Assembly (NCBI RefSeq): GCF_932294415.1
Contig: NC_065536.1
Span: 5,466,974 to 5,530,973 of the forward strand
From: Quercus robur
Taxonomy: Eukaryota; Streptophyta; Magnoliopsida; Fagales; Fagaceae
Direction of reading: 5' to 3'
Length of the DNA: 64,000 bases
Shown here: piece by piece, positions 35,751-59,736 of the stretch
How the letters are laid out: each line of letters opens with the position of its first letter
Numbering within the stretch: position 1 is the first letter of the stretch
Made by a program: the position numbers and the translations under genes
Notes under the pieces: generated by a model
What the model saw: the letters and a program-made list of their open reading frames with translations, nothing else
Databases searched by the model: none
What the model was told of the DNA's origin: nothing

Positions 35751-36885
35751 GTGTGTCTCTTTTCAACAAAATAGTTTGCAGAGTTCACAATTGAACTTGT
35801 TCTTCCATTGCAGCGTTTGGTGTGTGTCGCATGACTTCTTCCCAGCAGCACAGCTTGTGCCAAGAAGTTGCAGGCACTGGAGAGTCAAACGCAAGTGAGG
35901 ATTTTATTATAGGCTGATAGTTTTTTTATTAAGCAAATACTTCAGGTTATTTTAGGTATTGAGTGCCCTAATACATCCATGTTGCCAATATGCTATGAGT
36001 TTTAAACTAGTATTTTCATAAAAAGCTAGTCAGATGTACGATTTTAAAACGTGACTTCTTGGCATTTTGAAAAATGTATTTTCCTAAAAATCACGAGGCT
36101 AAACGCATGTTGTTTCGTGTTTTCTTCTAAAAACATGTGTTTACTCTGTGCAAATGCTTATCCATACAAGCTCATAGTCTTAATAAAAATAATTGAACAC
36201 CAACCAATCAGTTGGTGGATTTTGATGGACTCTCACTAAAGAAGAGCCTTACTCATTTAAGGGTGCTAGCACCTAGTGAGCTATAACTAGCAAGCTAGCA
36301 GCCCCTTCCTTATTATTGGTAAGATAGGTTCGGAATCCTTATTATTAGAGAAAGGGGAGTGTAGCTAATTTCATTTTCAATTCGGATTGAAATTATATGC
36401 AATAGCTCTCAATGACTGAGATTGAGATTTGAAAAAAAAAAAAAAAAAAAAAAAAAACTTTCAGTCTTAACTATTGAATAAATAAAGTGAAGAAAAAATA
36501 AAAGTGAAAGTAGTAAAAAAAAAGAGCGATGAAACCAGCCTTACACACATGACAGATAATCAAAAACAAATACAAAACCCTTATCTATTTAATTAAAGAT
36601 CAAATTAACTAGAATGCTGGCAATAGCTGTTGTCGGATTGCCAATAAGAATACTAACAATGGTCTGGAGAATTACTTTCACCATCTTCAACAACTTTTCA
36701 TCCATCTCACTATTTCTCTTCAATTGTTGACGCTGAATAGGCAGCTCCAAATTCTCCAAAGGCAAATCGTCAATACTAATAGACTTTCCCTTCTTCTTTA
36801 TTAACTCAAACAACATTTCCCATGTGCAATAAACATGAAAATTAAATTTGCCACACTCCGACACATAAGACCACCCTTTAAATAA
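34806..36885. repeat. Host segmental duplication, copy A (no CACTA insert)
   Basis: Colinear with 37190-38019 and 54698-55600 combined. The shared start is 'gagctagtcacgctctttta'. The copy ends inside the last DC1 exon, after the codons for KGWSYV. It contains the site where copy B carries the 16.7-kb CACTA element: 'gtgtgtcgcatgac' at 35823-35834. A (GT)n run (about 35389-35411), a (GA)n run (about 35720-35748) and several T-runs differ in length between the copies. Confidence 0.85.
36589..36885 (-). pseudogene. DC1 protein C-terminal fragment (paralogue of the Hsp70-DC1 end)
   Basis: The minus strand encodes the end of a DC1 protein: KGWSYVSECGKFNFHVYC, then a hydrophilic linker, then the hydrophobic tail ILIGNPTTAIASILVNLIFN and a stop at 36589. 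It is about 85% alike to the tail of the Hsp70-DC1 gene at 55308-55600. This copy keeps the correct frame across CGKFNF, where the other has one extra base. Everything upstream of WSYV is missing because the duplication ends here. Confidence 0.8.
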
Positions 36886-53167: not shown

Positions 53168-53250
53168 ATGTCTGATAATGACAGTGATGCAGAAGAAGAT
53201 GATTTCTGGATGCCTCCAGTGGGAGATCGTTGGGATTTTGATGATGGAGC
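53168..53250 (+). other. Protein-like 27-codon stretch in the CACTA 5' region (origin unknown)
   Basis: Starting at an ATG, the plus strand encodes MSDNDSDAEEDDFWMPPVGD followed by RWDFDDG. It is acidic and tryptophan-containing, unlike the surrounding A/T-rich DNA, and then runs straight into a CA/CAG microsatellite. It reads against the transposon genes. CACTA elements are known to pick up host gene pieces, and this could be one, but I do not recognise the source. The opposite strand is also open here, so chance is possible. Confidence 0.3.
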
Positions 53251-53375
53251 ACACACACAGCAGCACACACACAGCAGTAGCAGCGCGCGCACACACACAC
53301 AGCAGCAGCAACAACACACACACACACACACACACACAGCAGCAGCAGCAACACACACACACACACAGCAGCAAC

Positions 53376-53422
<47 letters not shown>

Positions 53423-53555
53423 CAGCAACAGCAGCAACACACACACACACACACAGCAGCAACAACACACACAGACACACACAGCAGCAATAGCAGCAAC
53501 ACACACACACACAGAGCAGCAGCACAAGCAACACACACACACACACACAGAGCAG

Positions 53556-53594
<39 letters not shown>

Positions 53595-53860
53595 AGCAGC
53601 AGCAGCAACACCAACACACACACACACACACAGCAGCACCAGCAACACACACACACACACAGCAGCAGCACACACACAAACACAGAGCAGCATCAGTAAC
53701 AACACACACACACACAGAGCAGCAGCAGCAGCAACAGCAACATACACACACACAGAGCAGCAGCAGTAGCAATAGCAACATACACACACACAGCAGCAGC
53801 AGCAGCAACACACACACACACACACACAGAGCAACACCACACACACACACACACAGATAT
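53251..53860. repeat. Compound (CA)n/(CAGCAG)n microsatellite, about 600 bp
   Basis: Alternating (CA)n blocks and CAG/CAA triplet blocks ('cacacagcagcagcaacac' type) repeat about 20 times. All six frames are open over long stretches, giving apparent 180-270-codon proteins of His/Thr/Gln or Cys/Val/Leu that are artefacts of the repeat. Confidence 0.95.
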
Positions 53861-54697: not shown

Positions 54698-55600
54698 CGC
54701 ATGACCTTCTTCCCAGCAGCACGGCTTGTGCCAAGAAGTTGCAGGCACTGGAGAGTCAAACACAAGTGAGGATTTTACTATAGGATGATAAATTTGTTAT
54801 TAAGCAAATACTTCAGGGTATTTTAGGTATTGAGTGCCCTAATACATCCGTGTTTAGTCTATGCAAATGCTTATCCACACAAGCTTATAGTCTTAATAAA
54901 AAGAATTGAACACCAACCAATCAGTGGTGGATTTTGATGGAGTCTCACTGAAGAAGAGCCTTATTCATTTAAGGGTGCTAGCACCTAGTGAGCTACAACT
55001 AGCAGGCTAGCAGTCTCTCCCTTATTTTAGTAAGATAGGTTCGGAATCCTTATTATTAGAAAAAGGTCCTTATTATTAGAGAAAGGGGATTGTAGCTAAT
55101 TTCATTTTCAATTTGGATTGAGATCATATGCAATAGCTCTCAATGACTGAGATTGAGATTTGGGGAAAAAAAAAAATTACTTTTAGTCTCAACTTGAATA
55201 AATAAAGTGAAAAAAAAAATAAAAAAAAAATAAAAGTGAAAGTAAAAAAAGAACGATGAAACCAGCCTTGACAGTTAATAAAAAACAAATACAAAACCCT
55301 TATCTACTTAATTAAAGACCAAATTAACTAGAATGCTGGCAATAGCTGTTGTTGGATCGCCAATAAAAATACTAAGAATGGTCTGGAGAATTACTTTCGC
55401 CATCTTCAACAACATTTTACCCATCTCACTATTTCTCTTCAATTTTTGACGTTGAATAGGCAGCTCCAAATTCTTCAAATCGTCAATACAAATAGACTTT
55501 CCCTTCTTCCTTGACTCAAAGAACATTTCCCATATGCAATAAACATGAAAATTAAATTTGCCCACACTTTGACACATAAGACCACCCTTTCTTTTGATTG
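54698..55600. repeat. Host segmental duplication, copy B, right part
   Basis: Matches 35828-36885 ('cgcatgacttcttcccagca' and onward), including the 3' end of the DC1 coding region. Unlike copy A it continues into the full gene at 55308-58614. Confidence 0.85.
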
Positions 55601-58224
55601 CACATTGCGCACTGATCTGACTCAGTCTTACGAAGGTGAAATTTCATACCATCATATTCAAGTTCATTCTTGAGGTTGCAACAGCAAGGGTGCAAAACCA
55701 AGTCTTTTTCATGGCAATGGTAGACGAAACCTTTGACTTGTTTCCCACAAGCGTCACAATCCCTCTTGCATTCGTTGCACTTCCAAGGGAGCTGATCGTA
55801 GAATTTGAAAGTGGAGTCTTTGAAGAGCTTGTGAGTTGTGGTGGGTGTGCTATGCATGCAAGCTATGTGAAGATCATAGTTACACTCGTCACATCTGTAT
55901 CTCTTTCCAAAGCCATCTAACTTGCATCCATTACACGTGTACTCATCTACCTCGCATTTTTTGCAGTTGTTCTTTAGCACGAGCTTATGGTTCTTGGGGC
56001 AAGTACGATTTTTCTCCGTACTACTGCTTTTTGGCGGATTCTGCACCAAAAAAAAAAAGTCATATATATTAAAAGATCTAACATTTTTTCACAATTTTTT
56101 TCAAGAAACAAAAATGGAGTTTGAAAAAAAGCAAACAAATACAGAGAATAGAAGCGTGAAAGTTCCTTTAACAACTTAACTTCTATTCTTTATCAAAATA
56201 GGGATTTTACATAATTCAATGCTGATAGATGGTGTTTCATGCTATATGAAAATTAAAGTACCTGGTTTTTGTAATTGATGGTGATCCTCATGTTGTCTGA
56301 TTGGTTCTCCAAAGCATTGTTGGCCATGATCTTCTTCTTGTGCTCCTCATCCTTAGCCTTGTACTTCTCCGCCTACTGAACCATCATCATAATTTCTTTC
56401 CCAGCATCTCTTCCCCTGTCGATGGTGATTGTGATATTTTTCTTCTGGCCATTGTTCTTGACCTTAGCAGAGACAACATTTAAGATACCATTGGCATCAA
56501 TTTTAAAGCAGACAGTGATCTGAACTTCACCCTTGAGAGTTGGAGGAATGCCAGAAAGCTCAAACTTGCCTAGCAAGTTGTTGTCCCTGGTACTTGTTCT
56601 CTCACCTTCATAAACCGGGATGAAGGTACTAGAATGGTTGTCAGAATAGGGGAACTCCCACTCCACCTCCATAGTGGGGATGGTGGTATTTCTTCGAATC
56701 AAAACAGTCGTCTTATCTTTGGTACCCATTCTAAGTGACCTAGGGATGACATCCGATAACACCAGATCCCGAACCTTCTTGTTACGCTCACCAGTCAAGA
56801 TAGCAGCCTGAATAGCAGCGCCATAGGCAACAACTTCATCTAGGTCGTCGATGCTCTTGCAAAGCTTCTTTCCTTCGAAGAAGTCCTGCAACAGCTGCTG
56901 CACCTTGGGAATCCTAGTAGAACCTCCAACAAGGACAACATCATCGACATCTCTCTTGTCCATCTTAGCATCCCCCAAACACTTTTCAACAGGCTCCATA
57001 CACTTTTTAAAGAGTTCCATATTTAGCTCCTCAAAACAAGCACGACAAATTTTTGAATGAAAGTCAACACCCTTATACAATGAGTCAATGTAAATGGTGG
57101 CATTTTTAGCGGATGACAGTGTCTTCTTTGCCCCTTCACAAGCACTCCTCAACCTACTAAGGGCTCTGGGGTTCCCACTAATATCCATCTTGTTCTTTCT
57201 CTTAAACTCCTTAACAAGGGAGTTCACCATTATGTTAACAAAGTCCTCCCCTCCAAGGTGAGCGTCACCAGCTGTGGCCTTCACTTCAAATTTACCATTT
57301 TTAATTTTAAGAAGTGAGACATCAAGAGTACCGCCACCAAGATCAAAAATCAAAACATTCTTGCCAACACTGGCCTTCTTCTTGTCAAGACCATAAGCAA
57401 TGGCTGCAGCAATGGGCTCACTGATGATACGCATCACATTGAGACCAGCAATGACCCCAGCATCCTTAGTTGCCTTGCGCTGAGAGTCATTAAAGTAAGC
57501 TGGAACGGTCACAACCGCATTCTTGACTTTCGTACCAAGATAGGCCTCAGCAGTCTTACGCATCTTTCTAAGGACCATGGACGCTATTTGCTCAGCTGTG
57601 TACTGCTCCTTCCTGCGTTTGTAGTTGACCTCAATCTTGGGTTTATCACCAGGATCAGAAGTGACCTTGAATGGCCAAAACTTCATGTCACTCTGAACCG
57701 AGGCATCACTGAATTTCTTACCAATCAGACGCTTAGAATCTGTGAACGCCAGAGGATAGAACACAAGCATCCAATAGACAAAAATATCACATAATGTCAT
57801 AATCATTCAAATCTAATAAAGCAAATAAGTATTGATGACTACCCAAAAAAAAAAAGGACCAAAAACCAACTCCAAATAAAACTACGACACTATATTTGTA
57901 TTTCTCATTGACCGAAAATGCAATTTTATTTAAGTACAGTAAGACTTTCCCATCAAAAAAAAAAAAAAAAAAAAAAATACAGTAAGACTTCCAACTTCAT
58001 AAATAATTTAAATTATTAGATTACAAAACAACATAAATCTAGCAATTTTTTTTCTCTAATTAATCTAAAATTGTCGCATCTAATTCTAAAAAATAATATA
58101 ATAATAATAAACCCAAAAATGAAAGAATTTTTGTTACATAACTTCTACAGACTCATAGAAATAGCTCTCTTTTCATCTAATAAGAAAGCAAAAAATACAC
58201 ATGAAGCAAAAAGGTAAAAAGGTC

Positions 58225-58258
<34 letters not shown>

Positions 58259-58614
58259 TAAAACCTACATAACCATTCTAAAATCACAGTTTCCTTGACA
58301 TGACCACCCTCTACAAATCGAATCTGACTACATCAAAACGACCATCGTCGTTTTCTAATAAATAAATTTTTTTTTAAAAAGGTCATATTAGAAACTTTAC
58401 CGTAGACAGTGTTGCTGGGATTCATGGCGACCTGGTTCATGGCCACATCACCGACCAAACGCTCCTCATCAGTGAAAGCGACATAAGACGGTGTCGTCCT
58501 GTTCCCTTGGTCGTTGGCTATGATCTTCACACGGTTTTTTTTCCACACAGCCACGCACGAGTAGGTCGTGCCAAGATCGATTCCAATAGCAGGGCCAACT
58601 TCTCCACCGCCCAT
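55308..58614 (-). pseudogene. Hsp70-DC1 fusion gene (one TAG, one frameshift)
   Basis: Exon 1 (58401-58614) starts [20 protein letters not shown], the Hsp70 N-terminus. A 661-bp intron lies at the conserved Hsc70 position, splitting a GAT codon after phase 1. Exon 2 (56262-57739) carries the rest of the ATPase domain ([31 protein letters not shown]) and the substrate-binding beta domain ([14 protein letters not shown]), and ends NALENQSDNMRITINYKNQ inside the lid. The donor there joins an acceptor at 56041-56042 in exact phase 0 to exon 3 (55308-56040), which encodes DC1 zinc-finger domains (CPKNHKLVLKNNCKKCEVDE, RCDECNYDLHIACM) and a hydrophobic tail. A TAG at 56373-56375 (codon 527, Glu in normal 'MVQEAEKY') and one extra base near 55562 in the last DC1 domain interrupt the frame. 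The sequence is also diverged at usual Hsp70 positions ('[11 protein letters not shown]' for 'NEPTAAAIAYG'). A cytosolic chaperone role is expected for the Hsp70 part only. It may be a decaying gene or express a truncated product. Confidence 0.8.
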
Positions 58615-58619
58615 TGTTG

Positions 58620-58760
58620 CGAGCAAAAAAAATATCAAATTCTTCGAAAATAGAGAGAGAAGTTTGAGCTTGAAAACAAAGAGATGCTAGGATTGTTGCG
58701 AGCAAAGAAAAAAGAATTTTCGAAAATAGAGAGAGAGTTCAGCTTGAAAGAAAGAGACGA
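58620..58760 (-). promoter_or_regulatory. Tandemly duplicated 5' leader with heat-shock-element-like cores
   Basis: Directly upstream of the Hsp70 start, a roughly 75-bp unit is repeated: 'gttgcgagcaaa', then 'ttcgaaaatagagagaga', then 'gcttgaaa' (about 58616-58680 and 58694-58755). Each unit has an inverted GAA/TTC core (ttcttcgaaa at 58640, gaattttcgaaa at 58714) resembling a heat-shock element. Whether these lie in the leader or the promoter is not known. A TATA-like aataaatt lies further upstream near 58828 on the minus strand. Confidence 0.4.
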
Positions 58761-58769
58761 GGGAGGGAA

Positions 58770-59091
58770 TGAAAGGTGTTGTAATACAAAGACAAGGCCA
58801 CTAAAGAAGTGCCTGAGTGAGTCAAGGAATTTATTGTTGGGTACTGCTTATGTCCAGTGACCAGTGGTAACTTTCACCGACACAATTTGTTATCAAGATA
58901 CTCATTGTACAGTTGTGCAACGTTATCACATGCGTATGGCCCACGCCTTTTTATAATTATTATCATTCATCGCGTTTATAAGAAAGGATCGTTCTTCTCG
59001 AGTTTTTCAACTCAGAGAATATATATATATATTATTAAAAAAAAAAAGAATATATATATATTTTTTATTATTAAAACTCACTTATAGAATA
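58770..59091. other. Upstream region of the Hsp70-DC1 gene
   Basis: No gene. A/T-rich with TA runs near 59023-59060. It probably includes promoter sequence for the gene reading leftward. Confidence 0.4.
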
Positions 59092-59094
59092 TTA

Positions 59095-59736
59095 GGGGCT
59101 GTTTGGATTGACAATTCTCATCACTCAATTCTCAGTTTCCATAACTCAATTCTTAAAAATGGTGGGACCCATGTCAATTTTCAAAAAATAGTTTGTTTGG
59201 CAAGCCATAACTCAGTTTCCAATTTTTTGTTTCCATAACTCATAACTCAATGATATTTTTGTAATTAAACACACATGAGGGACCCACTTAGCAGCAACTT
59301 TTGACCAACTGACTTTTTTTTTTTTCTTCTTCTTTCTCACTGGTTCGGTCTTCACTGGGGTTTTTTTTTTTTTCACTGTTTTTTTCCTTTCTTCTTCACT
59401 GGGTTCGGTCTTCACTGGGTTTCTTTTTTCTTTTTTTTCTTTTTTTTCCTTTCTTCTTCACTGGGCTTTGTTTTCTTCATTGTTTTTTTTTTTTTTTTTT
59501 TTTTTTTTTTCACTGGGTTCGGGTTTCTGAGTACTAGAAAAAAAAAAAAGTTGCACTGTGACAGGCGTGGGCCCCCCAAATAATGTGAAAAATAGTGAGT
59601 GATGGAAACTGAGTGATGAAGGCAAACGGATGTAAAAAATTGAGTGATAAGTGATGAGTGATGAGTGATGAGTGATGAGTGATGGAAATTGAGTGACGGA
59701 AATTGAGTGATCAAATTTTGTTGGCCAAACAGGCTC
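59095..59736. mobile_element. Tourist-like (PIF/Harbinger) MITE with internal tandem repeats
   Basis: A 642-bp element has inverted ends GGGGCTGTTTGG and, read inward from the right, GAGCCTGTTTGG. It is flanked by tta (59092-59094 and 59737-59739). The subterminal regions are also inverted copies ('atcactcaattctcagtttc' on the left, 'gaaattgagtgat' on the right). The interior is pyrimidine-rich, with repeated 'ttcactgggttcggtcttc', and the right side has a (GAGTGAT)n run. No transposase. Confidence 0.8.

Follow-up and report, generated by a model that had tools for sequence, protein, structure and literature searches.

The assembly of Quercus robur contains a real chimera in which two exons of a cytosolic-type Hsp70 gene are joined in phase, through an intron, to an exon encoding DC1 zinc-finger modules. 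It lies on contig C3 of the 785.7 Mb genome, on the minus strand of the window (the whole stretch of 64,000 nucleotides that was analysed, to which all positions given without a contig refer). From comparison with its paralogues, we consider it probable that this was a chimeric gene born by recombination, that it stayed open for much of its life, and that it is now disabled.

Exon 1 of the Hsp70 half (58401-58614, 214 nt) begins with the ATG at 58614 and supplies 71 codons and one base. Intron 1 (57740-58400, GT/AG) interrupts the Asp-72 codon, which we take to be the usual intron position in plant Hsp70 genes; the position is identical in the Hsp70 loci L003, L004 and L005, and three stretches of the intron can be aligned with intron 1 of the canonical gene L005. 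Exon 2 (56262-57739, 1478 nt) encodes the remaining ATPase domain, SBD-beta and the beginning of the alpha lid, and ends with codon 564, the coding total of 214+1478 = 1692 nt being exactly 564 codons. Both exons belong to the Pfam HSP70 family (PF00012; 1.7e-27 for exon 1 and 7.4e-169 for exon 2). Intron 2 (56041-56261, 221 nt, GT/AG) separates them from exon 3, which begins at 56040 in phase 0 with a seven-residue linker, NPPKSSS (56020-56040), followed by an ACG (56017-56019) in the place where the DC1 genes L031 and L030 have their ATG start codon. The DC1 modules occupy the open frame that follows (55564-56016), with the conserved Cys and His residues kept; Pfam C1_2 matches exon 3 at 35.8 bits (cut-off 26), accompanied by a marginal ZZ match (22.4 bits, cut-off 21.4). 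The C-terminal part of the DC1 protein lies in a shifted frame (55308-55643), with the tail GDPTTAIASILVNLVFN, and no Pfam family was found in this piece. A preliminary description had proposed two Hsp70 exons of 564 codons with a conserved intron, joined in phase to an exon of DC1 domains by way of a donor at 56261 and an acceptor at 56041; the coordinates, codon count, intron position, GT/AG boundaries and phase 0 of the junction all held.

Searching the oak's own genome at the DNA level identified a separate nearest relative for each half. With positions 55300-57800 as query, the Hsp70 half was closest to the canonical cytosolic Hsp70 gene L005 (C37:61181841-61183364, 82%), which has a full lid and an EEVD tail; Ks between the two is 0.396, and exon 2 is 73% identical. 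A codon tree of 22 sequences (21 paralogues and the chimera copy, with L016 left out) makes the Hsp70 half the partner of L005 with a UFBoot support of 89 and separates it from the divergent arrays of Hsp70 genes on C37 and C1; its placement was not resolved in the protein tree. The DC1 half and its intron match a separate DC1 gene, L031 (C37:61256679-61257623, 70%), with Ks of 0.451 (83 synonymous sites) and Ka of 0.195 over the DC1 exon. Judged by Ks alone, two further DC1 loci are as near, namely L030 (C35; Ks 0.41, Ka 0.25) and L032 (C3; Ks 0.36, Ka 0.31), and L031 is our preferred candidate for the DC1-side relative because it has the lowest Ka and shares the intron, being the locus that shows it among the DC1 loci compared. 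Since the nearest paralogues of both halves are separate genes, the fusion is the derived state.

The joint itself is sharply defined. Local alignment to L005 stops at 56266 and local alignment to L031 starts at 56267, and base-level alignments place the switch inside an A-rich tract (56265-56271) where Hsp70 homology gives way to DC1-gene homology; an extra 3-base gap relative to L005 lies at the breakpoint itself. From the switch onward the sequence is DC1-gene-like: six exon bases, the whole of intron 2 with its donor and acceptor, the DC1 exon, and 3' flank as far as 55271. Intron 2 matches the predicted intron ahead of the L031 start codon (189 nt, JC 0.22), with 81% identity over 183 aligned columns and with the donor (13/13 nt) and acceptor (16/16 nt) identical. 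A phase match on its own is expected one time in three by chance, but the alignment of intron 2, splice sites included, with the L031 intron takes the in-phase joint beyond chance. When L031 is spliced at its predicted intron, the 24 codons of the upstream frame that lie between its nearest stop and the donor include no ATG. Intron 2 and the seven-residue linker are thus sequence inherited from upstream of a DC1 start, and the rearrangement is resolved to a few bases.

We propose that a cytosolic Hsp70 gene was broken near codon 562, early in its alpha lid, and that recombination at the short A-rich tract joined it to a DC1 gene, within the upstream exon of the latter and about six bases ahead of the splice donor of that exon. 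The upstream intron of the DC1 gene would thereby have become intron 2 of the chimera, and the linker would derive from 21 nt of formerly upstream DC1 sequence. Transcription from the Hsp70 end, followed by splicing, would then yield a 564-codon lid-less Hsp70 with DC1 fingers behind it; as the former DC1 start reads ACG, the complete DC1 part is now readable only through Hsp70. The similar Ks values of the two halves to their paralogues, 0.40 and 0.45, support the chimera reading, as does the presence of both paralogues in one region of C37. The origin previously suggested, a duplication or deletion that set a truncated Hsp70 in phase before a DC1 gene, was essentially right given the separate nearest paralogues, with the refinement that intron 2 came with the DC1 gene and that NPPKSSS is sequence from upstream of the DC1 start. 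The part that did not stand is a plain deletion on C37: L005 and L031 lie about 73 kb apart, and on the minus strand the DC1 gene comes first and L005 second, an order reversed relative to the fusion, so that a simple deletion there would not produce it. Duplication followed by recombination would give the order seen in the fusion. The possibility that L031 has an Hsp70 gene of its own in front was rejected, as no Hsp70 match was found within about 6 kb upstream of it.

The junction has GT/AG boundaries, correct phase and splice sites common to a paralogue; the reading frame is interrupted at two places, both of which had been noticed earlier. The in-frame TAG at codon 527 is present at 56373-56375, 111 nt 5' of the exon 2/3 junction, and would leave at most a 526-residue protein of ATPase domain and SBD-beta. 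As a general rule, a stop codon more than 50-55 nt ahead of an exon junction exposes a transcript to nonsense-mediated decay; with the TAG at this distance, the mRNA of the chimera is a likely target. The extra base reported near 55562 corresponds to a frameshift at which the DC1 frame stops, ahead of its C-terminal tail, and beyond which the C-terminal part is read in a different frame. A partial duplicate within the window (36187-36879, minus strand; 84-85%, best stretch 90%), made up of the DC1 3' end and sequence beyond it, is open across the corresponding place (36879-36589). Besides the frameshift, the two C-terminal copies differ by indels of 3 and 6 nt, and their divergence is 0.084 in Ka, 0.042 in Ks (2 changes) and 0.088 in noncoding sequence (363 columns); since Ka is about the same as noncoding divergence, the tail has been drifting about neutrally since the local duplication. 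The view that this copy is decaying is thus borne out by the TAG, the frameshift, near-neutral substitution and C-terminal drift. The local duplicate as a whole covers the 3' end of the fusion and sequence downstream of it, in two blocks (36187-36879 and 35813-35983, 84-92%), and no Hsp70 match lies beside the block at 36187-36879.

Changes on the chimera branch were assigned by parsimony with L005, L003, L002 and L004. Over 561 Hsp70 codons, a set that includes the stretch with the TAG and is therefore the fair one for counting stops, the branch carries 177 nonsynonymous and 72 synonymous changes and a single stop, where 8.83 stops would be expected under random placement (P(<=1)=0.0007). Over 452 codons, from which the TAG stretch was left out and in which 11 unresolved sites were set to the L005 base, the corresponding counts are 143 and 60 (omega about 0.84, indistinguishable from neutral, P=0.14), as against 5 and 39 in L005. 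The linker and SBD-beta part changed fastest (37 nonsynonymous to 8 synonymous changes in codons 384-452), and the interdomain linker went from DLLLLD in L005 to DLVLSD. Four clear indels separate exon 2 from that of L005, each of 3 nt, with no net frameshift; two single-base gaps, offset from each other, cancel and may be an effect of alignment. The Hsp70 frame has therefore remained more intact than expected under drift, while its amino acids were almost free to change, a pattern that fits a frame kept open over much of its history with weak constraint on the protein sequence. Open frames are no proof of upkeep as a fusion, since the halves may have undergone part of their divergence before they were joined.

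The DC1 exon has no stop in 146 codons where 2.68 are expected (P=0.052), a deficit that on its own is weak evidence of constraint, and its 34 nonsynonymous and 17 synonymous changes give an omega of about 0.60 (P=0.07 versus neutral), compared with counts of 29 and 10 in the unfused paralogue L031. All 16 of the Cys/His columns conserved in at least six of seven paralogues are kept in the chimera. By a broader count, 19 of 20 Cys/His residues were kept compared with 55 of 70 other residues, a difference that is not significant (P=0.079), and unfused L031 likewise keeps 19 of 20.

The Hsp70 half resembles a group already described in plants. According to excerpts of one paper (PMC10687569), truncated cytosolic Hsp70s of the T1 lineage are widespread in plants and are defined by high similarity to full-length cytosolic Hsp70, lack of the EEVD and an SBD-alpha and C-terminus that are deleted or atypical; these regions vary, with SBD-alpha and C-terminus deleted in some members, the genes form tandem clusters in some species, and they are scarcely expressed in the species examined, their transcripts being hard to detect. 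The chimera likewise has a cytosolic-type ATPase domain, SBD-beta, a truncated SBD-alpha and no EEVD, and its lid truncation and 73% identity to L005 in exon 2 agree with the structural definition of T1. It differs in having an in-phase DC1 exon behind the truncation, and the T1 account, as excerpted, makes no mention of a fusion, zinc or an additional domain (PMC10687569). Nor does it group with the tandem-array Hsp70s of this genome, which we take to be T1-like, given that the codon tree places it with L005. Relative to full-length cytosolic Hsp70, its lid homology ends at about 56266 and no EEVD precedes the DC1 exon. Relative to the DC1 (CHP/CHR) proteins L031 and L030, it has the same DC1 modules, with a C1_2 match and the Cys/His pattern, and it shares with L031 the upstream intron and the same kind of C-terminal tail (GDPT in L031); unlike both, it has lost the DC1 start codon, the DC1 5' end is replaced by Hsp70, and a frameshift precedes the C-terminal tail. 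Its Hsp70 extent is nearly that of a two-domain Hsc70 construct of 554 residues (PDB 1yuw), although that construct is a fragment of a highly conserved chaperone whereas many SBD and linker residues are changed here. Caenorhabditis elegans Hsc70 without its lid reportedly keeps ATP hydrolysis and cofactor binding and loses all folding activity (PMC3315512, in excerpt); by that measure, any lid-less product of the chimera would not qualify as an ordinary folding chaperone. A literature search found no described case of an Hsp70-DC1 fusion, and Hsp70 goes unmentioned in the excerpts of two surveys of DC1 proteins (PMC10707348, PMC13033517).

Several other explanations need to be weighed against that of a once-open and now disabled chimera. 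The fusion might never have worked, having arisen when a defunct piece of Hsp70 happened to be joined in phase to a DC1 gene, and having drifted from birth. The one-in-three odds of a phase match, the near-neutral omega of 0.84 on the Hsp70 branch, the DLVLSD linker and the noncoding rate of drift in the C-terminal part since the local duplication would all suit such a history; we nevertheless regard it as unlikely, since it sits poorly with one stop where 8.83 were expected in 561 codons (P=0.0007), with codon-sized indels in the Hsp70 half at a Ks of about 0.4 to the nearest Hsp70, and with the 3 and 6 nt lengths of the further C-terminal indels, frameshift aside. A different possibility, which we rate as distinctly improbable, is that the working product is the 526-residue lid-less Hsp70, T1-like, and that the DC1 part is untranslated debris. 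The frame is open up to the TAG, and truncated Hsp70s of the T1 type are widespread in plants, but by the same partial account their transcripts are hard to detect (PMC10687569); moreover, substitution is near neutral and fastest in the linker and SBD-beta region (37/8 in codons 384-452), the stop would be expected to trigger decay of the spliced mRNA, and the lid-less C. elegans protein lost all folding activity (PMC3315512, in excerpt).

The gene could also be functional and open in other individuals or related species, with the assembly carrying a null allele. There are only two disabling changes, the Hsp70 start codon, the splice sites of both introns and 16 of 16 conserved Cys/His are intact, and the DC1 counts (34/17) are no higher than the 29/10 of the unfused paralogue; against this, no intact second copy of the chimera was found among the matches listed from its own genome, and the recent C-terminal drift looks neutral, and we see only a slim chance that this is correct. 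We are similarly doubtful, if marginally less so, that a true Hsp70-DC1 protein, with zinc fingers in place of the lid, was present during much of the period after the halves split from their paralogues (Ks of about 0.4) and is still intact in relatives or other alleles. That the joint is an assembly artefact is the least credible of the alternatives, to the point of being highly improbable. It is known from one assembly, but the two halves stand at similar distances from their closest paralogues, and the top matches in the rest of the genome reach just 82% (Hsp70 half), 70-73% (DC1 half) and 90% (DC1 3' end only), which makes a mis-join of copies from elsewhere unlikely.

The disabled chimera that we favour offers a view, at close to base resolution, of how a new domain combination can arise: when the break falls in the upstream exon of the second gene, the intron of that gene supplies a ready donor and acceptor, and one in-phase frame results. 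Should relatives keep the frame open, this would be, as far as we are aware, the first chaperone to have zinc fingers in place of its lid, and a natural test of the lid's role; should they not, it would stand as a well-documented dead chimera.

The genome is rich in Hsp70, with at least 74 exon-level matches. No second fused Hsp70-DC1 pair was found among these, at least 18 DC1-exon matches and the 150 scored of 823 C1_2 candidates; the last of these is a weak control, as the chimera's own DC1 exon was not among the 150. With distances computed for C37 and the nearest C3 matches, and other contigs judged by eye, the nearest other Hsp70/DC1 pairs among the matches listed both lie on C37; the members of one, on opposite strands, are separated by 10.2 kb, and those of the other, which share a strand, by 15.3 kb. 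Two kinds of candidate were rejected as further fusions. The long Hsp70s of the C1 array (727-798 aa) owe their extra length to K/E-rich sequence and a second lid-like segment in the four examined, rather than to DC1 modules, and a truncated Hsp70 on C40 at 3.998 Mb (L021) has a short tail without DC1.

These loci have features of their own. The C1 genes (L010, L016, L017 and L018, C1:32.34-32.45 Mb) are double-lid Hsp70s in tandem, with frames of 727-798 aa in which a lid is followed by K/E-rich sequence, including repeats such as EIKDKGQEAEKNIAQDKEDKK in some, and then by the second lid-like segment. L021 (C40:3997626-3999047) is cut in the early lid and ends in a short, largely hydrophobic tail, HVVNGIATVAGLYFMGAGKIKFK. 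A large tandem array of divergent Hsp70s with tails lacking EEVD occupies C37:61.30-61.64 Mb (L006-L009, L011-L015 and L019), near the canonical L003 and L005; DC1 genes lie to either side of it, at 61.257-61.281 Mb and at 61.704-61.753 Mb. Contig C3 has many C1_2 matches; two neighbouring DC1 copies there, L032 and L033 (C3:5574561-5576370), carry a TGA at the same codon, and their duplication may be later than this common stop.

Upstream of the chimera, the 5' flank (58600-59300) had no match to the other loci compared at E 0.01, and a promoter scan, which picked out several TATA-like sites and a single HSE-like core at -106, was uninformative. A tandem duplication (58613-58757, 83%) lies immediately ahead of the Hsp70 ATG, in what is presumed to be the 5' leader. 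Elsewhere in the window, another DC1-like frame of 205 aa, judged by eye, lies on the minus strand at 109-726, and a long CA/GCA-type repeat block of low complexity at 53250-53855 has open frames on both strands.
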